IMG/VR virus record: IMGVR_UViG_3300037808_002143
Coordinates: 1 to 42,455 of that record
Source of the DNA: a virus
Reading direction: 5' to 3' (one strand)
DNA: 42,455 bases
Part shown: one piece after another, positions 7,570 to 40,001 of the stretch
Position numbering within the stretch: the first letter of the stretch is position 1
How the letters are laid out: the number at the start of each line of letters is the position of its first letter
Translations under genes and position numbers: made by a program
The notes under the pieces: generated by a model
The model's database searches: none
Told to the model about the DNA's origin: nothing
What the model saw: only the letters and a program-made list of their open reading frames with translations

Positions 7570-7593
7570 TCTATTAATTTAAATATAATCTTT

Positions 7594-8505
7594 ATGGCAA
7601 TTATTATAGAAATATTAGAATCTAAGAATGAGATTATTTCTGGAATTCCAGAAACAGTATCTATAATTCCGATTGATAATGTATTATTTTATTATTCATT
7701 AGATGGTGAGGATCCAGGATTAGAGTCTTTATTGGGTGACGAATTAATATATCTTCCCACAAATGTAGCTTCTATTGAGCTGAGGGTTATTGGATTCTCC
7801 AATGATATTGAGCTAGGAGTAATGATTCCTGTTACGGAAGTTTTTGGAAAAAAATATTATTCAAACCCATACTTGAGTAGTAGGTCTAGGCACAATCATA
7901 GTGATGGGATAATTGTCATCCCATATGGAAAGGATCCGGTTGATAACCTGTCAATGCTTAGTGATGGCAGAAAAGCTCAGGAGAGTGCGATAGAGATGAA
8001 GAATCTTGACATAAAGGCATCTACCAGCTCAAGGTCTGGCGAGAAGATTCCAAATGATTCTTCAATTTCTTTTGTCAAAAAGCCAATTAAGGAAGGTTCA
8101 ATTCTAGATGATCGAAGAAATTCTTCTGTAAATAGTCTTGACTTTAATCCAAAGGCAAGTGTCATAAGTATCGACGGAAGAACTGAGGAGGCTAGGCAGT
8201 CTCAAGTTGTAAAGATCGTCAATCGCAGTTATAATAGTATTGATCCAACTTCAAATTTTTATAGTGAAAATTGGAAAAGAAATGAGCAAGTAATAACTGG
8301 AAATTTAGTTAGAAGTATTTATAATAGCAATACTGGAATAATTGTATTTTATTATTGGGAAAGTAAAGAGTCCAAGTGGCTTACGTCGACTCAAAATATT
8401 GGAGTAAGGGGCTCTTATAACATCTCTGGGATTGCTTCGTCTGGGAGGGGCAATAGGTTTACCTATAGATGGATACAGGAGCGATCATTTACAAGAATAT
8501 TTTAG
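7594..8505 (+). CDS. Protein with chitobiase C-terminal-like beta domain
   Basis: A 303-residue protein. Residues about 18-85 fit the CHB_HEX_C beta-sandwich pattern: a Pro start, then FYYSLDGEDP, then an Ile/Leu-Pro strand and a SIELRVIGF strand. Such domains occur in phage and secreted surface proteins. The middle (about 100-200) is Ser/Asp/Lys-rich and probably unstructured, and the last 100 residues look like a small beta-rich domain ending in aromatic/basic residues. A virion or baseplate component is plausible, although the gene lies between Rad50 and a nuclease. There is no SD before the ATG; a TATAAT sits 4 bp upstream of it. Function is otherwise unknown. Confidence 0.6.
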   Translation: MAIIIEILESKNEIISGIPETVSIIPIDNVLFYYSLDGEDPGLESLLGDELIYLPTNVASIELRVIGFSNDIELGVMIPVTEVFGKKYYSNPYLSSRSRHNHSDGIIVIPYGKDPVDNLSMLSDGRKAQESAIEMKNLDIKASTSSRSGEKIPNDSSISFVKKPIKEGSILDDRRNSSVNSLDFNPKASVISIDGRTEEARQSQVVKIVNRSYNSIDPTSNFYSENWKRNEQVITGNLVRSIYNSNTGIIVFYYWESKESKWLTSTQNIGVRGSYNISGIASSGRGNRFTYRWIQERSFTRIF

Positions 8506-10079: not shown

Positions 10080-11033
10080 ATGAGTTTAAAAGATTTCATA
10101 AAAAATGAAGTAGAAATAGCTAAATTTAAACTATCCCGACTAGATAAGAGTGGTAGGCGCTATAAAGCTAGGCTCGCGGATACTGAGAGAGAGTTTCTTC
10201 GGATAGACTTCGCGGCACTGGGCTGTGACGAGTCTGGGGCGAGGGAGGCTGTAAAGCTTTTCAGAGCGTCTAGGGCATTATTTTATCTAAAACACAAAGA
10301 TCAATTGATTTCCTCAGATAAGTTTTTAGATATAAAGAAGTCAACCTTAAATAGAAAAAGATATTTAGTAAAAAAATCTAATGAATTAAGTTCCGGGTAT
10401 GCTGTGGGTTATAATAACGAAATTAATAATTTATTTTCATATTCAGATATTATAAAGAAAAGACAGATAGCAAGATTTGAATGCGGAACCAAGTCTTTGG
10501 GCAAGTATATAAGCGATAAAATGAATGATATATATAAAGATATTACAGAATTAAATAGTAACAATATATTATATGCAAGATCACTTATTGATGGGATAGC
10601 CCTCAACTTAAGAAAAAAATGGTATTTAAATTACAATTATATTTTATCCAAAGAATCATTCGGAAAAATTAAGCCATTAATAGTTGCAGTAGATAGGCCG
10701 CTGAATGATGGAGACGTTTATGACGATGGCTATAGAATCTTGACTAATATAAAAAAAATAGGCAATGAGCATATGAAAATAGCCTGCTTAGACCTCACTA
10801 GAGATGGCAGGGAGGATATGCTTGGTTACTCTTATGCGAGATTGTCTGGAGATATTGATGGTCATAAGGCTGTTAGAATAAAAAGATTGAATGAAAATAG
10901 CAGTGAGTTGAATCCAGATAGGGTAAGAGTTCTCGTTCCAGGGACGAGATCTGAATCAATATCACTTGACTCTTTGGGACCAATAATTGGCTCGGTATGC
11001 AGCCTAATATCTGAAGAGTATCATTCATTTTAA
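10080..11033 (+). CDS. Unknown protein
   Basis: A 317-residue basic protein, mostly helical in its first 200 residues (Lys/Arg/Leu-rich, few Pro) with a more beta-rich C-terminal third (from KPLIVAVDRPLNDG). Its first helix is strongly charged. No catalytic motif or known family is recognised. It starts 3 bp after the sigma-like gene and is probably co-transcribed with it. It is followed by a 71-bp gap before the giant gene. A nucleic-acid-binding or transcription-related role would fit the charge and the neighbour, but that is a guess. Confidence 0.7.
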   Translation: MSLKDFIKNEVEIAKFKLSRLDKSGRRYKARLADTEREFLRIDFAALGCDESGAREAVKLFRASRALFYLKHKDQLISSDKFLDIKKSTLNRKRYLVKKSNELSSGYAVGYNNEINNLFSYSDIIKKRQIARFECGTKSLGKYISDKMNDIYKDITELNSNNILYARSLIDGIALNLRKKWYLNYNYILSKESFGKIKPLIVAVDRPLNDGDVYDDGYRILTNIKKIGNEHMKIACLDLTRDGREDMLGYSYARLSGDIDGHKAVRIKRLNENSSELNPDRVRVLVPGTRSESISLDSLGPIIGSVCSLISEEYHSF

Positions 11034-11104
11034 TCTATTAATTTATACTATATTTAATAGAAATGTGTTAGTTTTTTCGTATGACACTTAAAGGGTAAGT
11101 ATAC

Positions 11105-14100
11105 ATGGTATTCTTGGGCAAAGAGCGGCAGGTTAAACGATTTTTAAGAGGCAGGGTAGAGCAAGGCGACTTTGCTCTTGTAATTGGAGACTTGAGGCTC
11201 TTGGCGGAAGCCCCCAATGATTCAGAAAATCTCCTTGACATGAAAGATAAGTACTTTAGCCCAGAAGTTCTTTTGGGGCTAATTAGCTATGCAGGTGGAG
11301 TTGATGCTTTGTTCTCCTCTGATATTAATAGCCTAGCAGATTACTTGGAGGGGCTTTATACGGAAGGGAATAATACTCTCGAACCTTCTGGAAGCAAGCT
11401 GCCTCAATATGAAGAAGTCTCCAATGCGTCAATAATTAGCCTGAATACTGCAGAGTCAGCATTTAGGACATGGGCACCATTATTGGTTGATGTCCACGAG
11501 ATTGTCGATGAAGAATATGAAGATGAGTTTTTGACGGTACCATCAGGAAGGTATTCTGAAGATGGGTCAGAGCTATTAAGGGATGACGAGGATCTTGGCG
11601 ATATAGATGATGATCGGGATCTTGTAGAATTTGACGAAGAGAATGATTCAGAAGGTGGTGGTGATACTCTGGCGAATCCTGCTTATGATGTTGAAAAAAT
11701 CCCTATAAATAGTAAGCTTATTTATAATATTTTGGAGCATGAATTTGAGATACCTGAGGATATTATAGATAGTAGTTTGGATGATATCTTTGATGCGCTC
11801 TTGGGGTTACAGGAGGCTATCGTATCTCATTACAATGCACTTAGCAAAGATGTTTCGGCTTATCCATCAGATGAGATTTTAAAAGAGGATGAATTCTTAA
11901 GAAATATATTAAGGAAAGCTTTGGGCGAGGCAACGTCGACTCCTGACTCTGTCCGTAGAGAGCCTGAGGCAACTCGGGATAGTTCAACCAACTTAACGGG
12001 GACTTCCCGGTCGGAAAAATCCGAATCTATTCCAAGTGGAACGACTTTGGAATTCCCTATCAAAAGTGATGATGCTCCTATTAGTGATAACGATAATGCG
12101 CATGGATCGAGCCCCAATAAGTTATGGGCAGCCTCATCAAGTAAGGTAATGATAGATCTAAATATTTCAGAAGAAGAAGAAGCTCTAATAAATGAGAAGA
12201 GCCCAAATCAGCTTGGCGAATTTGATGCCGGTGGTATCACTGGGCTTTCATATGTTGATTTGCAAAGAGATTCTCTAAGGGTGACGAAAGAAAAGTTTGA
12301 TAATAACGAGTTGGCACAATTTTCTTTATCAAAAAAGATTGAGCTAGAGCAGCCTGATGGAGGGTATGACGGTATAAACAAAAGCTTGATTCACCCAATA
12401 TTTAAAAAAACATCTGAATTATTTTCCTGTATTTCAATATTTGAAATTAACAATGACGCAATACCCTCGCTAAGAGATGATGCTGTTGAATTAACTGATT
12501 ACCTTGAGCTAGAGATTAAAGGCTTATTGGAAGGTTTGTTAAAAGGATTATCTGGCAGAATTTCAAACACAGCTCGTGGAGCAAAGGAGTTTGAGATAAG
12601 GGTTGAAAAAGTAAATATCGCTGTTGGGAACGCAATAGAGGCTGCTAAAGTTTGGGACGGCTTTAATGATTTGGAGTCAAGTAGGTTTGATATTAAAATT
12701 CCAGAAAATACAAAATTAGTAAGGAGGATGCAGGAGGGATCAGATATATTTTCTTTGCTAGTAAAAGTTGTAAAAGATGGCTCTCTAATCCACTATACTG
12801 GAGTTAAGGTTGGGAGTATTATAAAGAATAAGGCAATCAGCTTAGGAGGTAATATTGATGATGCAGAGGCTAAATTGGACGAGGCATTTAAGGTCACTCT
12901 AGATGCTCAGATTTGCTCCTTCTTAAGAAAGTCTTTGGACGTACGAAGCCATAGGGAATGGTCCTCTCCATTTATAACTATTCAGGCGGCGGTAGGTATC
13001 TCGTTAGGCCCAATACTGCAAGACGCAACTAAAAAAATAAGCAATCCATTTTCTGGAGCTTATTATATAAGCTGCCCAGTTTGCAGCAAGAACATAAGAT
13101 ATAAAAACTTTAGCAGCAAGGGCGGAGAGAAGAAGAGAGATAAGCATGACTATAAGATTAGAGAGTATTCGCTAGTTAGGGCTGGCCGACAGGAATCTAG
13201 AGGCGGAGTTACTGTTCAGCATCCAGGTGGTATAATATCAGCCCAAGACTTAGGCGATCATATTGGCGTACCAATAGATGGAGAGTTAATAGGATGGCAG
13301 AGAGCAAAGGATCTTATGGCCTTGCCAAATAGCTCTGACCAAGAAAAGGGGAATAGGGCTAGAAATCTAATTCTAAAAAGCTTAGGCGGCAAACCATTGT
13401 TTAGTGCTGATAGGTATATCTCCAGCACTAAATTCGCATGTCCAATGGAGGATTATTTAATTCCAGATGGATCAAGTGCTTCAAGAGATTGCGGGTTTTC
13501 TATAGACGTTGATAGCGTAAGAGGCGCTGAGTCAATCGGGATAGAGGGAGTGAGCTCTAGGTTCCAGTCCAGTTTTGCTAGTTCGAGTGAGTCTGAGGAT
13601 ATTTTTGAGAAAATAAATAAATCTGATATTTTAGAGGATAAGAAAAATATACTAAAAGATTATATTTCGAGAAAGAGATCTGGCGGATGGAACTTCTCAA
13701 ATACTCAATTTGCATGTCCATGCCATATTTCTCCAGAATCTTTTTCAGAAGATGACGTAAGTGACTTTAGAGAGAAGTATAAAAATGCACGATTGTTAAT
13801 CCCTCATATTGGATTCGCAAAATTAAATAATCTTGAATCTAGCAGTATCCTTCAAGATACTTCTAGTAACAATAGCTTAAAGTGGATTTATCAACCGCCT
13901 ACAACTGCAGATGGCCAAAATAAATTTTTTAGTGAGGGTTCTTCTGGATATATTGTATGCGGAGTATCAACATCAATATCATCATTCGTCAGAGATAAGA
14001 ATAGCGAATTATCCATAACATCACTGATAAAGAGAGCTGTAGATGCGGGTGGCCCGAACGCAGCCGAAGATATAATTGAGACGCTATTGAGGCTTGGCAT

Positions 14101-17100
14101 AGACATTGAGGACGTCATAGGGGCAGACTCACTATTTGAAGAGGATCTAGATAAGGCCGGAAGAATAAATGTATTATCTAGAATTATGAAATCAGCAATG
14201 GCCGTAAATATAGGCGGTAATAATCGTGAGCTTGACATTATTAATGATCTTGGGCTGACATGTGGAAACGGCCATACATTTACGATTGGGCAGTCCGTAA
14301 GGGTTGGGCAGACCCACGCAGGAACGTCGGCCAGGGGAGACTTGCTGAGTCAGGATGGAATCTTTGGCAAATCTGGAATAGATAATTTTAAATATATTAG
14401 CGAAAAGTACTTTAGACCAGTTACGTCTACGGAAGAGATGAGTTCGTTAAATAGTATTATTGACACAGGGAGTTCATATCCTGGGTTTGAGCTTAGTGAA
14501 ATTAAATTCTCCAGCCCAACAAATCCTGACGAAATGTTATCATTTTCAAGATCAAATAGGTCAAAATTAAGAAGAAAAGATTTTGTTACAACTACAGTTA
14601 GGGATGGTTCTTCAGTATATAGCTATGATCCATTACAGAGAGAGGATCGTGAATCTATTTCTAGAGAATTTACGGCCTCATATAGTGATGTTGATGCTGG
14701 TGACATTGCTGCGGAAAATTCTTTGCCGACTGAAAATATTTCCGCAGCGTATAGTCTAGACGCCAGAGGAGTTGTAGAGAAGATATTTGAGATGTTGAGC
14801 GGAGCGCTTGATACTGTAATGTCACTTAGCAAAACCTCGCAATCACTAGATATTGAGACGGTACTGCTTAATGATGAGAAAGAGTGCTGCGACGATAATA
14901 TTTCCAAGGAGATAAAGAATATATTTTCATCTCTATTTAGAAGCCTAGGCGCTACAGATGGAAACATAGATCGATTATTTTTAGACATAGATGAAGGGTT
15001 AATAGATCGACTTAAAGGGCAGAAAATATCTTCAATAAGAGGTTACGGAAGATCCGGAATAGAAGCCGCATTAACAAGAATAGTAGTTGAAAATTTGGAG
15101 CTACAATTTATAGAGACTATTGACGCAAAGACGATGAATGAGGCTAGAGATCTAGTCTCAAAATCTGTAGATATGCTGATTCCACGAGGCTATGAATATG
15201 GAGATCTTTTTCCAGATAATCCTGGATCAAGCAAGAAGATAATATTAAGAAGAAGAGCGGAGCATGTTGGTCGACAAATAATGGGTGGGTCTGCCATTTA
15301 TTTTGCAGATGTAATTGTAAACATATTTAGAGATAGATTCAGCAAGAATTTGTCATCAACAATGTTTTCAGGCTTAAATATTGACATCGATTTATCCAGC
15401 AGAGAAAGCATTCTTGAGCTAGACTTTTCTAAAATAGAGAAACTAAGAAGTATAGATTATTTGGAAATTGCTTCTGAAGAATTTGAGAAAAATAATGGTG
15501 ATATAAACAGGCTAAGAGATAGTTATGTTGATTCCAGAGGAGTGATTAGAAGGGAGTTAATTAGATTTCGTGGCCTAGTTACTACTCAGAAATATATGGA
15601 GCTTGGAGCTGGAGTTGCTTCAAAAGGCGTCGAAAAGGCCCTTGAGCTAGAGAGCAATGAAACAGTAGATAATATAAAAAAATATATCTTTGGTAAAGAT
15701 AAAATTATAAACATTTCGCTAAACTCTAGCGAGAAGCATTTTTCAGGCGCTAGACCTGGCGAGTTTGTCGGAGGCTATGCGGCTCCAGTCTTTGTCTCTA
15801 AGAATAGAGCTGCAGAATCAGATATAATTCATGCACTGTCTGATGGAAATAATTTTTATGGAATGTTAACAGAAGATGAGAATAATCACTTTAAGAATAG
15901 TGGTTATTCGAGAGATTACATGCTAGGATTAGTACGGGGCAATATACCATTCGGATGCGAAGAACTTCCGACTAATACATTCTCTCAGCTAATAGGTAGA
16001 CTTGACGGAAGCATGTGGAGGCCATGCCTTGTAAGTAGAGCGATGGATGGAAAGCCTCCCTATAAGCTTAGTAAAAATTATAAATTAAGCATATTAAATC
16101 ATCCCAATACCAAGATGGTAAGTGTTGACGGTGGAGACGTACATTATGAAAATATTGATTTAAACCTAAACACATCGGAAGGATTACAGCTCGGGCAGCA
16201 AGTCTCTTCAACGTCTGATCGGGGTACGAATAAACTCTATCCGCCCAGCCCATATGCCATTACTGGAATTGGGATTCCGTTGCCATTCGACTACTCTGGC
16301 TCTTATGATAGGAAATCTGGAGCATTTCAGATTCCGCATCTATATACTGATCAGGAAGAGTATGGAGACTATAAGGATGGGAAGTATAAGATCCCAATTC
16401 AAGAATGTAAAGCGCCAGTTGATATTGGGCTATCTAGTGGTCCAATAAATGCTGCGGACTTCATGAAGAGGTCCCCAAAGTATGCTATCTCAATCTTTAA
16501 TGAAATAGATGAAATCTATAATGAATCAATAAAAGCCTCGTCAAGCCTAGAGGGAGAAGAGGCAAGGACTATTATAGATAATGCGAAGAGAAGGGTTCGA
16601 CAATTGCACGATAAGTATAGAAATTTACCATTTGAGATTGAATCTGGAAAAAATAGATCCGGCGTAGCTCCAGTGGGCGGAATGAGAAATGTGGGCGGTC
16701 TTTATATATCAATGTGGGATTATGCAACGATGTATAAGATGGCGACTTGGCCGGCATATTCGATAGAGTGGGGCGGGCCAGGCAGATATTCCGACCCAGA
16801 GGGGTTAGGAAAGATAATTGGATTTATATCAAATCTTTATAACGTTCAATCAATAGCAGATGCTTTGGGGAAAAAGACAAAGCAAGAGTATACCATAGAG
16901 GACGTTCTAAGCGGTGCAAGAAAAGGGTTTGACGAAGAAATAAAGTTTGCATCTGGATTGACAAATAATATTTCAAGATTCTATTCCATAAACCCATACG
17001 GAGATGATTCTGACGCGAGCATAATGGTTTACGCGGACTGGGATTATCCTGGCTCGGCCAGTGGAGGTAAGTTTGATCTTAACTCCTCATCATACTCAGA

Positions 17101-17455
17101 CAGACTATCTAAATTGGAGAGAGTGAGGAGCACCGAAGAGTCTGATAGACTTTCTCCCTCCGATATAGCAACTATGAGGGGCTTTTATGGGAAGGCTGGC
17201 GGTCCTGATAGTGGAGTTCAATTTGGACCATATGGAGAGACGAAAGCTTCTGACTCAACCCTTAGTATTTATGCGTTTACCGCTAGATTGCGTGACTTTA
17301 TATCTAGCTTCGCGCTAGGATCTTCGGCGGAGAAAAAGGAATCTGCCATTAATGGTAATTCGAAATTTTTATCGAAAATTTCAGAGAGAAAAGACGGGCT
17401 AAGGCGTATAATATTTATGTCAGAAGTCGAGTCGCTTCTGGATGAAATAAAGTAA
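11105..17455 (+). CDS. Giant 2116-residue protein with cysteine clusters
   Basis: The largest gene of the window, about 15% of its length. ATG follows an AAGGG motif. Residues 1-400 are very acidic and low-complexity in places (runs of Asp/Glu near 130-190; Ser/Thr/Pro-rich near 270-350). Residues 650-1060 contain cysteine clusters: C657-x-x-C660, C779, C796, C871-x-C873 followed by His, C952, and C1053-G-N-G-H. Two of these have nearly the same setting (STKFACPM and NTQFACPCH), suggesting repeated metal-binding units. The C-terminal 900 residues alternate helical and Gly/Tyr/Pro-rich segments. I see no ATPase, polymerase or protease motif, no DFDGD, no long coiled coil as in a tape measure, and no membrane segment. 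A large virion-internal, DNA-binding or structural protein is possible; function is unknown. Confidence 0.85.
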   Translation: MVFLGKERQVKRFLRGRVEQGDFALVIGDLRLLAEAPNDSENLLDMKDKYFSPEVLLGLISYAGGVDALFSSDINSLADYLEGLYTEGNNTLEPSGSKLPQYEEVSNASIISLNTAESAFRTWAPLLVDVHEIVDEEYEDEFLTVPSGRYSEDGSELLRDDEDLGDIDDDRDLVEFDEENDSEGGGDTLANPAYDVEKIPINSKLIYNILEHEFEIPEDIIDSSLDDIFDALLGLQEAIVSHYNALSKDVSAYPSDEILKEDEFLRNILRKALGEATSTPDSVRREPEATRDSSTNLTGTSRSEKSESIPSGTTLEFPIKSDDAPISDNDNAHGSSPNKLWAASSSKVMIDLNISEEEEALINEKSPNQLGEFDAGGITGLSYVDLQRDSLRVTKEKFDNNELAQFSLSKKIELEQPDGGYDGINKSLIHPIFKKTSELFSCISIFEINNDAIPSLRDDAVELTDYLELEIKGLLEGLLKGLSGRISNTARGAKEFEIRVEKVNIAVGNAIEAAKVWDGFNDLESSRFDIKIPENTKLVRRMQEGSDIFSLLVKVVKDGSLIHYTGVKVGSIIKNKAISLGGNIDDAEAKLDEAFKVTLDAQICSFLRKSLDVRSHREWSSPFITIQAAVGISLGPILQDATKKISNPFSGAYYISCPVCSKNIRYKNFSSKGGEKKRDKHDYKIREYSLVRAGRQESRGGVTVQHPGGIISAQDLGDHIGVPIDGELIGWQRAKDLMALPNSSDQEKGNRARNLILKSLGGKPLFSADRYISSTKFACPMEDYLIPDGSSASRDCGFSIDVDSVRGAESIGIEGVSSRFQSSFASSSESEDIFEKINKSDILEDKKNILKDYISRKRSGGWNFSNTQFACPCHISPESFSEDDVSDFREKYKNARLLIPHIGFAKLNNLESSSILQDTSSNNSLKWIYQPPTTADGQNKFFSEGSSGYIVCGVSTSISSFVRDKNSELSITSLIKRAVDAGGPNAAEDIIETLLRLGIDIEDVIGADSLFEEDLDKAGRINVLSRIMKSAMAVNIGGNNRELDIINDLGLTCGNGHTFTIGQSVRVGQTHAGTSARGDLLSQDGIFGKSGIDNFKYISEKYFRPVTSTEEMSSLNSIIDTGSSYPGFELSEIKFSSPTNPDEMLSFSRSNRSKLRRKDFVTTTVRDGSSVYSYDPLQREDRESISREFTASYSDVDAGDIAAENSLPTENISAAYSLDARGVVEKIFEMLSGALDTVMSLSKTSQSLDIETVLLNDEKECCDDNISKEIKNIFSSLFRSLGATDGNIDRLFLDIDEGLIDRLKGQKISSIRGYGRSGIEAALTRIVVENLELQFIETIDAKTMNEARDLVSKSVDMLIPRGYEYGDLFPDNPGSSKKIILRRRAEHVGRQIMGGSAIYFADVIVNIFRDRFSKNLSSTMFSGLNIDIDLSSRESILELDFSKIEKLRSIDYLEIASEEFEKNNGDINRLRDSYVDSRGVIRRELIRFRGLVTTQKYMELGAGVASKGVEKALELESNETVDNIKKYIFGKDKIINISLNSSEKHFSGARPGEFVGGYAAPVFVSKNRAAESDIIHALSDGNNFYGMLTEDENNHFKNSGYSRDYMLGLVRGNIPFGCEELPTNTFSQLIGRLDGSMWRPCLVSRAMDGKPPYKLSKNYKLSILNHPNTKMVSVDGGDVHYENIDLNLNTSEGLQLGQQVSSTSDRGTNKLYPPSPYAITGIGIPLPFDYSGSYDRKSGAFQIPHLYTDQEEYGDYKDGKYKIPIQECKAPVDIGLSSGPINAADFMKRSPKYAISIFNEIDEIYNESIKASSSLEGEEARTIIDNAKRRVRQLHDKYRNLPFEIESGKNRSGVAPVGGMRNVGGLYISMWDYATMYKMATWPAYSIEWGGPGRYSDPEGLGKIIGFISNLYNVQSIADALGKKTKQEYTIEDVLSGARKGFDEEIKFASGLTNNISRFYSINPYGDDSDASIMVYADWDYPGSASGGKFDLNSSSYSDRLSKLERVRSTEESDRLSPSDIATMRGFYGKAGGPDSGVQFGPYGETKASDSTLSIYAFTARLRDFISSFALGSSAEKKESAINGNSKFLSKISERKDGLRRIIFMSEVESLLDEIK

Positions 17456-17485: not shown

Positions 17486-17773
17486 ATGAATGAACGAGTT
17501 ACTCCTGCACCTATTAAGATTATGAGTACGAATGAGAATAGCGATCTTACATGCTGGGACATGGAAGATGCAAAAGAGTATGTTAAAGTATATATGACAT
17601 ATGAGATGCAAATCAAAGATCTTCAGGAGTCAAGAAGAGAGTGGTCTAAAGACTTCCTTGACGAAAAGGGGCTTCCAAAGAAAGAACTTTCAACAGCTCT
17701 TTCGGCAGCAAAGAAAGAGCTCGACATGGACGTTGTGAGCGAAATTTTTAACAATATAACCGAGATGGTATAG
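17486..17773 (+). CDS. Small helical protein, DsbA/GapR-like in shape
   Basis: A 95-residue protein. The last 60 residues form a pattern of helices (IKDLQESRREWSKDFLDEKG, then a KKELSTALSAAKKEL helix, then EIFNNITEMV) that recalls the small T4 DsbA double-stranded-DNA-binding transcription helper and GapR-type (DUF2312) proteins. The resemblance is in helix order and charge only and is weak. SD AAGGA lies ahead of the ATG. The gene stands alone between the giant gene and the polymerase gene, with about 100 bp of non-coding DNA after it. Confidence 0.6.
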   Translation: MNERVTPAPIKIMSTNENSDLTCWDMEDAKEYVKVYMTYEMQIKDLQESRREWSKDFLDEKGLPKKELSTALSAAKKELDMDVVSEIFNNITEMV

Positions 17774-27011: not shown

Positions 27012-27765
27012 TATAGATGATACAGCCGCATTAAATATGCTTGCGGAAATTTGCCACTCAAATTTAAAAAACTCAAAAGATTTAAATGATTATTTAAGCT
27101 CTAGCAGAGGATTATCTAGCGATATAATAAGCAAGTATAGGATTGGCTTTTTCCCGCAAAATTTAAAAAAACTAACGAGCTTTATTCCCGAATCTTTACT
27201 GCTAAGACTAAACATCGCAGAGACTCCTTATCGCAGTCAGTTCTCAGATTATTTTTCATTAATATTCCCAATATACTCTGAACATGGGGATGCTATAGGC
27301 ATAAGCGGAAGAACACTATTATCGGATATTGAAAGAAGAAGTATTGGCATTCCAAAGTATAAGAATAGCTCATATAAGAAGGCGGAGATTCTTTATGGAT
27401 TAAAAGAGGCTTCTGAGGAGATTATAGATTCACAAAATGCTTATGTAGTCGAAGGATACTTCGATAAAATAGCAATGGATTATGCGGGAGTAAATAATGC
27501 AGTAGCAATTTGCGGTACTGCGTTTTCTCAGAAGCACTTTCTAAAGCTGGCAAGATATACAGATAAGATAACTTTTATATTAGACTCTGATGACGCCGGC
27601 TTAAAGTCTATGCAAAGAATTTATGAAAAATATATAAACAGAGGAATTAAAATGAGATTTTTAAGAATTCCATCGCCATTTAAAGACGTGGATGAATTCT
27701 TTAGAGAAAAATCATTGATTGATTTCGAAAAAGAGTTTAAACAAATAATCCCAGGAGTATGGTAG
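26998..27765 (+). CDS. dnaG: DnaG-type primase catalytic (TOPRIM) subunit
   Basis: A 255-residue protein matching the catalytic core of bacterial primase without its zinc finger or helicase-binding tail. It has an N-terminal TOPRIM_N-like region with LIFPIYSEHGDAIGISGR and PKYKNS, then the TOPRIM motifs VEGYFDKIAMD (catalytic Glu), ILDSDDAGLKSM (D-x-D) and FKDVDEFF. The CHC2 finger that DnaG needs for template recognition is in the separate gene at 3762. It would synthesise RNA primers for the phage polymerase. The ATG follows GAGG too closely; a GTG at 27004 has better SD spacing. It is in the recA operon. Confidence 0.88.
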   Translation: MIVNSIDDTAALNMLAEICHSNLKNSKDLNDYLSSSRGLSSDIISKYRIGFFPQNLKKLTSFIPESLLLRLNIAETPYRSQFSDYFSLIFPIYSEHGDAIGISGRTLLSDIERRSIGIPKYKNSSYKKAEILYGLKEASEEIIDSQNAYVVEGYFDKIAMDYAGVNNAVAICGTAFSQKHFLKLARYTDKITFILDSDDAGLKSMQRIYEKYINRGIKMRFLRIPSPFKDVDEFFREKSLIDFEKEFKQIIPGVW

Positions 27766-28208
27766 TGTCAAAGAAGAAAAGCAAATCTTACCAGCACAAG
27801 ATTGTAGAAATCTCCTTTGACCAGATGAAGTTAAATAACTTCTCGAACTCTAATGGGATAAGCAATATGCTTACTGATAGCGCGATAGATGATAGAATCT
27901 CTGATTTGAGATCAGAATTATTGGAAGAGATTTATGAGATAATTCACGGAGACTATTTAACTGAACATCAAAAAAAGATTTTGTTTATGCGGTTGATGGG
28001 AAAGACTCAAAATGATATAGCAAAACATCTTGGAATAACGCAGTCGGCAGTGCACAAGGCTATGCATGGAAATATAGACTATAAGAATAATAAAAAGCGA
28101 TATGGCGGTATAGTAAAAAAGTTGCAAAAAATATGCGCCACACATACGCGTGTGCACGAAATACTTGCCTCAATAGAAGTCATAAAATCAGATTCAGATG
28201 AATCTTGA
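27765..28208 (+). CDS. HTH protein, sigma region 4-like
   Basis: About 147 residues from a GTG that lies 7 nt after AGGAG; an ATG at 27759 is the alternative but overlaps the SD. Residues about 65-100 form a helix-turn-helix of sigma-70 region 4 or LuxR type (LTEHQKKILFMRLMGKTQND, then IAKHLGITQSAVHKAMHG). The N-terminus is Lys-rich and unstructured; the C-terminal third is helical. No region 2 is present, so it is a DNA-binding regulator or partial sigma rather than a full factor. As the last gene before the structural module, it may help switch to late transcription. Confidence 0.7.
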   Translation: MSKKKSKSYQHKIVEISFDQMKLNNFSNSNGISNMLTDSAIDDRISDLRSELLEEIYEIIHGDYLTEHQKKILFMRLMGKTQNDIAKHLGITQSAVHKAMHGNIDYKNNKKRYGGIVKKLQKICATHTRVHEILASIEVIKSDSDES

Positions 28209-28348
28209 ATTCTATTAATAACATTGAGAACTAGTAGTAAACTATTATTTGTTATTCTTATTTTTCTGCTAATTGATTGATATAAATCAAAGAATAATAT
28301 AAGTTTAAAAAATTTTATTTTTATAAAGAATATGGAGCACTATATAGC
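28209..28348 (+). promoter_or_regulatory. Module boundary: weak terminator and late-promoter-like region
   Basis: A 140-bp gap between replication and virion genes. First comes a weak interrupted hairpin (AATAAC 28217-28222 with GTTATT 28251-28256, and an inner TAGTAG/CTATTA stem) followed by a T-rich run, a possible terminator. Then an inverted repeat TTGATT-N6-AATCAA (28273-28290) encloses TATAAATC (28281-28288), one base off the T4 late -10 box TATAAATA. TTGATT with TAATAT 16 bp downstream is an alternative sigma-70 pair. Confidence 0.4.
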
Positions 28349-28828
28349 ATGTCATTTTTAGATAAAGTACTAATGGAACTTTCTAATAATTCAAGGCCAG
28401 GAATTTCTGGAAAAAATAGAATAAAAGTTACAGATGAATTAAGACTTAAGAAAGTTGCCTTTGATATGGTAAAGGTATATGGAGATGAGTATGATGACCT
28501 TTGGAGGGTTGAGAGTACGAATGACGGAGAATTCCTAGTTAGAGCTTCTAATCCTGAGTTTCAAACGAAAGAAAGTAGCAACTGGAAGGCTATTAGCGAT
28601 TTTAGTCGTCAGAACATTACTCTTTCATACCGTGGGGTTCCAATCGCCAGATTCGCTTCAAGCGAGTATTCTTTTACTCCAGAAGATGTAGGGATATTCA
28701 AAGAAGCACTGCTTGAGAGGGCAGTGGGGGATAATGAGTTTGTAAAGCAAGTTTTTGCCAGTCAGTCTGATGCGAAAAAGTCTGCAATAAGCAGCGCATT
28801 TCCAGAATTAAAAGATATCATAAAGTAG
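28349..28828 (+). CDS. Unknown protein, first gene of virion module
   Basis: A 159-residue protein. The N-terminal helix (SFLDKVLMELSNNS) resembles leaders of neighbouring virion genes, the middle is a compact alpha/beta domain (DDLWRVESTNDGEFLVRASNP), and the C-terminal 60 residues are helical (VGIFKEALLERAVGDNEFVKQ). GGAG lies 12 nt before the ATG, a long spacing. No family is recognised. Placement at the head of the structural operon suggests a virion or assembly protein. Confidence 0.65.
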   Translation: MSFLDKVLMELSNNSRPGISGKNRIKVTDELRLKKVAFDMVKVYGDEYDDLWRVESTNDGEFLVRASNPEFQTKESSNWKAISDFSRQNITLSYRGVPIARFASSEYSFTPEDVGIFKEALLERAVGDNEFVKQVFASQSDAKKSAISSAFPELKDIIK

Positions 28829-34145: not shown

Positions 34146-34184
34146 TCAAAAATAAATGCGTCTACTAATAGGCAGTTATAATAT

Positions 34185-34589
34185 ATGATTAGAGGAAGAG
34201 CAAAAAAATGTCCATTTGGACTTGATATTCCAGAGGGCTGTAGGTGTGCCGGCAGTGCTGTTAATATGATGACTCAAGTGGATAACCTTAAGGGTGATGA
34301 CGCAATAATGGCTGTTGATGAAAATTATGATATTATGCTATCAATAGAGGAGCCTGATAGCTGTATACATGCAGACGTAATCATTGATGAGAAAGAGATC
34401 GTTGAGTGTAAGTTTGACGAAGATCGCAAGATGGCTCCAGCAGGGACAATGGGATTGAATGGATCTCCTCATTATCCACATATTTTTTCTGGAAACGCGC
34501 CAAAAGTAGATAGTGCGTTCCCAGTAAAGAATTATGTTGATGATAATTATAATAATAATGCTTATTATGGTCTTTTTTCATACCTATAA
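34185..34589 (+). CDS. Small Cys-rich CPFG-motif protein
   Basis: A 134-residue protein whose N-terminus has KKCPFGLDIPEGCRCAG (C9, C19, C21), a short metal-knuckle-like motif seen in uncharacterised phage proteins; further cysteines (PDSCIHAD, VECKFDE) could complete a zinc site. The C-terminus is Asn/Tyr-rich and flexible. No clear SD precedes the ATG; TATAAT sits 2 bp upstream of it. Probable virion or assembly protein; no function is known. Confidence 0.55.
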   Translation: MIRGRAKKCPFGLDIPEGCRCAGSAVNMMTQVDNLKGDDAIMAVDENYDIMLSIEEPDSCIHADVIIDEKEIVECKFDEDRKMAPAGTMGLNGSPHYPHIFSGNAPKVDSAFPVKNYVDDNYNNNAYYGLFSYL

Positions 34590-39707: not shown

Positions 39708-39764
39708 TATTCCTATTAATTATTAATATTCATTTGATAACTTTGCATTTCAAAGGAACTTTAA

Positions 39765-40001
39765 ATGAGTATTAAAATTATTGACAGACTTAATAAAATA
39801 GCAAGCTCAGCAGGGACGACCCCAGTTTATGAAACGGTTGATCCGGACGGAAATAAAGTTACATTTACGCCGGCATCATTGGTCGCCTCGGGCGGGAAGG
39901 CGAGATCAAAGTCTGGTAAGCCATTTCGCGTAAGAAAGTGGAAGGGCAAATCATTGGCCGGGAGAGTTTCTGGAAAAGATTTTGGAAAAGTAAAGAAGTA
40001 G
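39765..40001 (+). CDS. Small basic protein
   Basis: A 78-residue protein with an amphipathic leader (SIKIIDRLNKIASSAG) and a C-terminal half that is very rich in Lys, Arg, Gly and Ser (KARSKSGKPFRVRKWKGKSL). Net charge is strongly positive, which suggests binding to DNA or to an acidic protein partner in the head. It is preceded by AAAGGA. A 57-bp gap separates it from the portal gene. No family is recognised. Confidence 0.6.
   Translation: MSIKIIDRLNKIASSAGTTPVYETVDPDGNKVTFTPASLVASGGKARSKSGKPFRVRKWKGKSLAGRVSGKDFGKVKK

Follow-up and report, generated by a model that had tools for sequence, protein, structure and literature searches.

The giant gene and its genomic context

The question raised by this locus is what a protein of 2,116 residues, encoded between the sigma-factor and DNA polymerase genes of a phage, might do. 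The window analyzed here is a virus record of 42,455 bases. It encodes an FtsK-type ATPase, a split primase, SbcCD, a PD-(D/E)XK nuclease, a sigma region 2 protein, DnaE, SSB, RuvC, GroEL, RecA, a sigma region 4-like protein, terminase and portal; RuvC, the primase and SbcD were assigned by reading the sequence only. An initial sequence-only reading had described a large open reading frame, acidic at its front and rich in cysteines in the middle, located between the sigma factor and the polymerase. Indeed, the frame is intact from ATG to stop, and the gene order is sigma factor, 317-aa gene, giant gene, 95-aa gene, dnaE.

10080..11033, plus strand: preceding 317-aa gene, without a late-type motif of its own; the second member of the fastest-evolving gene pair of the region
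11105..17455, plus strand: giant gene, 2,116 aa; intact frame with same-size homologues in the syntenic place
17486..17773, plus strand: following 95-aa gene, well conserved and kept in several relatives without the giant

Same-size homologues in many independent contigs, together with dN of 0.40 and dS of 2.2 between the window and the sister locus L002, mark the giant as a real gene under purifying selection. The 317-aa gene has no family match; its RxGNE and TRSE motifs are conserved across the relatives.

A family of giant proteins in jumbo phages

The single giant protein, used as a query, had no match in IMG/VR, INPHARED or PDB and no significant profile match in Pfam or PHROGs. The relatives were reached via DnaE and via a profile of the cysteine-rich region. 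The DnaE search yielded 27 loci, and most of those that extend far enough upstream have a giant ORF in the same place; further scans gave an alignment of 29 giants, a few of which are cut by contig ends. Complete members have about 1,900-2,700 residues (about 1,920 to 2,675), come from uncultivated jumbo phages and nearly always lie between the sigma-factor gene and dnaE. Since the relatives' records are up to 395 kb long, the window is probably also a part of a jumbo phage genome. Each of four long records searched contains one copy of the giant. Pairwise identity of the giants is mostly 15-38%, with 52% to L002 and 77% for one pair, whereas DnaE beyond L002 is 53-75% identical.

None of the methods used connects the family to a known relative, although large, presumably late phage proteins are as such familiar. 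Its members give just isolated single-member matches in Pfam (E 0.002-0.1), and a profile search of the PDB sequences had its best match, at E 0.16, to unrelated molecules. The earlier statement that the protein contains no known motif thus holds in Pfam, PHROGs and PDB. No homologue of the giant was detected in phages Rctr197k, Finch and LR745208, nor in Bacillus phage G, the nearest named phage by portal, whose gp14 is 31.5% identical to the window portal. For the marine cluster PGC_A, to which phage G belongs, the marker is a DnaE-type polymerase domain (PMC9123017). The best DnaE match among 50,697 phage records is about 35% identical. Moraphages were considered as a parent lineage and set aside, as they have a family B DNA polymerase (PMC12619734).

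Two further observations concern the relatives. The dnaE genes of L015, L020, L026, L038, L039, L063, L064, L066 and L075 are interrupted or lengthened by large inserts, seen as additional ORFs of some 330-440 aa or as frames reaching 1,595 aa; these inserts are probably inteins, or introns that carry homing genes. The long record G006 has a second GroEL-like gene (L093 16811-18451, corresponding to G006 116811-118451) besides the one in the conserved block.

Conserved cysteines and predicted zinc sites

The most conserved positions were mapped in the 29-row alignment, where some positions are covered by 28 rows.

13052..14314, plus strand: residues 650-1070, the cysteine core, which contains the eight conserved putative zinc ligands (alignment, AlphaFold2 model)
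13073..13084, plus strand: C657-x2-C660, CPVC knuckle, 28/28 aligned rows
13439..13441, plus strand: C779 (FxCP), 28/28 rows
13490..13492, plus strand: C796 (CG), 27/28 rows; the exception, L020, has an unaligned CG nearby
13715..13717, plus strand: C871 (FxCP), 29/29 rows
13958..13960, plus strand: C952 (CGxxTS), 29/29 rows
14261..14275, plus strand: C1053-x3-H1057, CxxGH knuckle, 29/29 rows for both residues

Seven of the window's 15 cysteines and H1057, the sole invariant histidine of the giant, are retained in 27-29 of 28-29 rows. C873 is a cysteine in 15 rows of 29, and each of the remaining seven in at most four. The putative ligands thus stay the same where overall identity is about 20%, and almost every other cysteine varies. 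Conserved sets of four Cys/His ligands, as needed for zinc binding, are thus present. The list given by the sequence-only reading was right about C657, C660, C779, C796, C871, C1053 and the histidine; it also included the unconserved C873 and overlooked C952. Of its partly repeated settings, STKFACPM and NTQFACPCH are both present and have F-x-C-P in common, with no evidence of a true duplication.

In the AlphaFold2 model, C657/C660 and C1053/H1057 are each placed between two strands, and the other four ligands are located beside strands. From the alignment and the model we infer zinc binding at two predicted four-ligand sites in the core, the most likely pairing being C657/C660/C1053/H1057 and C779/C796/C871/C952. 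The first set resembles zinc ribbons, whose CxxC and CxxxH/C knuckles also lie between two strands. However, its halves are about 390 residues apart, with the second set of four cysteines between them, and none of the zinc-ribbon families matched the giant.

Domain organization and fold searches

Outside the cysteine core, four regions can be delineated.

11105..12376, plus strand: acidic, variable N-terminal part, residues 1-424 (pI, conservation)
12395..13039, plus strand: residues 431-645, predicted to form a helical domain (AlphaFold2 model, residues 430-1200)
14762..15691, plus strand: residues 1220-1529, predicted to be helical (AlphaFold2 model, residues 1140-2116)
15704..16414, plus strand: predicted strand-rich region, residues 1534-1770 (conservation, AlphaFold2 model)

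The acidic front is confirmed, with pI 4.3 for residues 1-120 and pI 4.05, with 26% D+E, for residues 121-360. It is a family trait: in the 27 members measured, pI of the N-terminal part is 4.05-5.3, compared to 5.2-9.0 for the core. It is also the fastest-changing part of the giant, retaining its acidic composition but not its sequence. The strand-rich region has conserved glycine and proline positions, P1713, G1723 and P1727.

The model of residues 430-1200 has mean pLDDT 74 and pTM 0.63, and that of residues 1140-2116, mean pLDDT 69 and pTM 0.68. The cysteine core was modelled within a 771-residue piece, and the structure searches were dominated by helical parts. With a limit of E <= 0.001, Foldseek matched the first half to nothing in PDB and neither half to anything in BFVD, and so found no match to a known family of giant tail proteins or RNA polymerases, a result that does not by itself prove a new fold. 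The best VIA-align matches were to a helical bundle of MukF (Z 7.6) and a short helical stretch of phenylalanine ammonia lyase (Z 8.3), both judged to be common arrangements. Overall, PDB and BFVD yielded nothing convincing for either model.

For DxDxD, Walker A and HExxH alike, no single place has the motif in more than four of the 29 rows. DxDxD is the metal-binding motif of two-barrel polymerases (PMC10770324), and its most widely shared place is in the acidic front. The structure searches of the two models gave no convincing polymerase match, weak or missing matches being compatible with the presence of a double-psi beta-barrel. Gly, Pro, Phe and Ser make up most of the conserved columns other than the ligands; polar ones are scattered, and the charged ones are few (D518, D1000, D1003, R753 and R1020). 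The lack of a shared catalytic motif and the scarcity of charged columns argue against a known polymerase, ATPase or metalloprotease. They are compatible with an unfamiliar activity; the giant is probably a large non-enzymatic structural protein.

A candidate late promoter

Reading of the gaps before the giant and other genes suggested a recurring octamer, which in the window occurs at the following places.

7571..7578, plus strand: late-type motif before the 303-aa gene at 7594
11035..11042, plus strand: CTATTAAT, late-type motif of the giant, 62 nt before the ATG and outside the preceding gene
28212..28219, plus strand: late-type motif before the head-gene block starting at 28349
34162..34169, plus strand: late-type motif preceding the head-block gene at 34185
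39713..39720, plus strand: late-type motif preceding the small ORF that follows the portal, at 39765

Gibbs sampling of the regions upstream of the giant in 24 relatives yielded the consensus YTAYTAAT with 10.6 bits, compared to 7.2-7.9 bits in shuffled sequence. It precedes the giant in 19 of these relatives, the exact consensus being missing in the other five; on the reverse strand, it was found in one of 24. Within 150 bases, the motif occurs before 23 of 29 giants and before the first gene of the head block in 26 of 27 loci, counts that include near-duplicate contigs and are given without probabilities as the relatives are not independent. Most replication genes have it in 0-6% of loci, and at most 13% for genes with more than 10 loci (2.6% expected). 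Relatives whose slot lacks the giant lack the motif there as well. Nine relatives have the motif in one codon phase of the preceding gene and six in another phase; in four it does not lie within any long open frame. With three coding contexts, the motif is not accounted for by constraint on coding and is a signal at the level of DNA.

In G006, the genes preceded by the motif include the tail sheath gene (identified by PHROGs) and a gene with weak virion-structural matches. When genes selected in G006 were considered in other relatives, the motif was present before the tail sheath gene in 7/7, the baseplate-side gene in 6/6 and the head-region gene in 10/11. On the other hand, some motif-bearing genes of G006 look non-structural: an HU-like gene (PHROGs) and GlmS-like and deformylase-like genes, the latter two named from their sequences alone. 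Taken together, this suggests that YTAYTAAT is a candidate late promoter and that the giant is transcribed late. Scans for sigma-70 promoters and terminators gave matches only at the level of shuffled sequence.

Several other observations concern transcription signals. The sigma region 4-like protein (27759-28208) is encoded by the most conserved gene measured, 96% identical to L002 and 78% to G006; possibly it is a late-promoter factor. The 303-aa gene (7594-8505), located between SbcC and the PD-(D/E)XK nuclease, has no Pfam match, and its late-type motif is found in the window and some relatives. The HU-like gene (L092 16360-16641, G006 96.4 kb) could encode a packaged nucleoid protein. Finally, L095-L097 (G006 160-192 kb) contain about 35 copies of a motif similar to ATAAATAAGATCGATTYATTATAG, many of them just upstream of start codons; this array in one 30-kb region may represent early promoters distinct from the late-type motif.

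Evolutionary rate and absence from the slot

Between the window and L002, dN is 0.48 for the 317-aa gene and 0.40 for the giant, as against 0.04-0.22 for the fifteen other genes measured. The giant exceeds the regional median of dN about fourfold, as host-facing phage proteins often do, with dS in the same range though saturated. Recombinational replacement is conceivable as the cause of the divergence from L002 but not supported, since the giant and its neighbours have similar, albeit saturated, dS.

The giant is missing from its slot, between intact sigma-factor and dnaE genes, in at least five relatives. These contigs are fragments of 35-128 kb, and the gene could be elsewhere in the genome. 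On the DnaE tree, the pattern of presence and absence requires three changes. The absence, if real, argues against a tape measure or a core replication role, and, as far as the fragments go, indicates that the giant is not a universal virion part.

Possible functions of the giant protein

The reading that we favour, and consider rather probable, is a late gene with its own promoter, encoding a structural or ejected virion protein with a two-zinc core. The giant would be a late gene with a private promoter inserted among middle (replication) genes. Such an arrangement is known from alt of T4, a late gene inside an early region whose product is packaged and ejected. The protein would consist of an acidic disordered front, a helical domain, the two-zinc core and then a helical and a strand-rich half. 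It would serve as a virion component or protein cargo, perhaps housed in the head and leaving it together with the DNA, and not as a part of the replication machinery. Promoter activity, late timing, virion location and ejection are inferences; the motif makes a virion component or cargo probable, as it marks sheath, head and baseplate-side genes. The original suggestion of an unusual virion protein thus gains indirect support from the promoter-like motif; a nucleoid role, also proposed, may apply, and G006 has an HU-like gene with the late-type motif. The suggestion of a transcription protein, made from the sigma neighbour, is weakened: the late-type motif distinguishes the gene from the replication operon around it, and the family conserves none of the catalytic motifs of polymerases.

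A bolder version, which we regard as rather unlikely, is a new giant ejected protein unrelated to RNA polymerases, with a new two-zinc fold, that acts on the host early in infection. It would be made late, packed in the head and delivered with the DNA, and its fast change would reflect adaptation to the host.

For the favoured reading as well, large ejected proteins are known: gp45, gp46, gp47, gp49 and gp50 of crAss001 are cargo, gp47 and gp50 having 262.5 and 276.9 kDa (PMC10172136), and the N4 virion RNA polymerase, of about 3,500 residues (PMC12633501), is packaged and ejected; the giant may work likewise. It resembles the crAss-like cargo in being large, but those proteins are carried by the virion, whereas the giant is presumably so. 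Besides, gp47, gp49 and gp50 are associated with RNA polymerase, whereas the giant has no polymerase motif, sequence match or fold match, and neither a catalytic motif nor sequence similarity links it to the N4 enzyme.

It is also possible, if unlikely, that the giant is made late but stays unpackaged, as an assembly factor, scaffold or late regulator in the infected cell. The late-type motif alone does not show packaging, since apparently non-structural genes have it too, and the giant is absent in some relatives. Scaffolds and assembly factors tend to have an acidic, low-complexity front like that of the giant. However, 2,000-2,700 residues is large for a scaffold, and there is no positive sign of a role in assembly.

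The gene neighbourhood, with a fixed place between sigma and dnaE in nearly all relatives, would fit a component of a replication or transcription complex. We consider this improbable, because the giant has its own late-type motif unlike its neighbours, evolves far faster than replication proteins, and leaves the slot empty in five relatives with intact sigma and dnaE. A tail component, such as a tape measure or tail fibre, is quite improbable as well: the giant is large, fast-evolving and has the late-type motif, but in G006 the sheath and baseplate genes are far from it, and it lies beside dnaE, outside the tail gene block. A tape measure is expected to be universal and mostly helical, whereas the giant is missing from the slot of some relatives, and the models show a strand-rich part and the cysteine core. 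Highly improbable, finally, is a virion RNA polymerase, or another transcription enzyme, that enters the host with the DNA like those of N4 or crAss-like phages: despite the size close to gp47 and gp50, the late-type motif, and the lack of an Rpb1-type match in the four long relatives, so that no other such phage polymerase was seen, DxDxD occurs at one place in at most four of 29 rows and within the acidic front, no fold or profile match was obtained, and two sigma-type genes fit the use of host polymerase.

The giant marks a lineage of large uncultivated phages without a close relative among the 50,697 phage records. In G006, for example, its gene fills about 2% of the genome, and the family and fold libraries searched do not recognize the protein. 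If packaging is true, an ejected giant that is no polymerase would be the more surprising result. The late-type motif is itself a tool, as it sorts the genes of the lineage into late and non-late directly from genome sequence and thus makes many of its uncharacterized genes testable as virion proteins.
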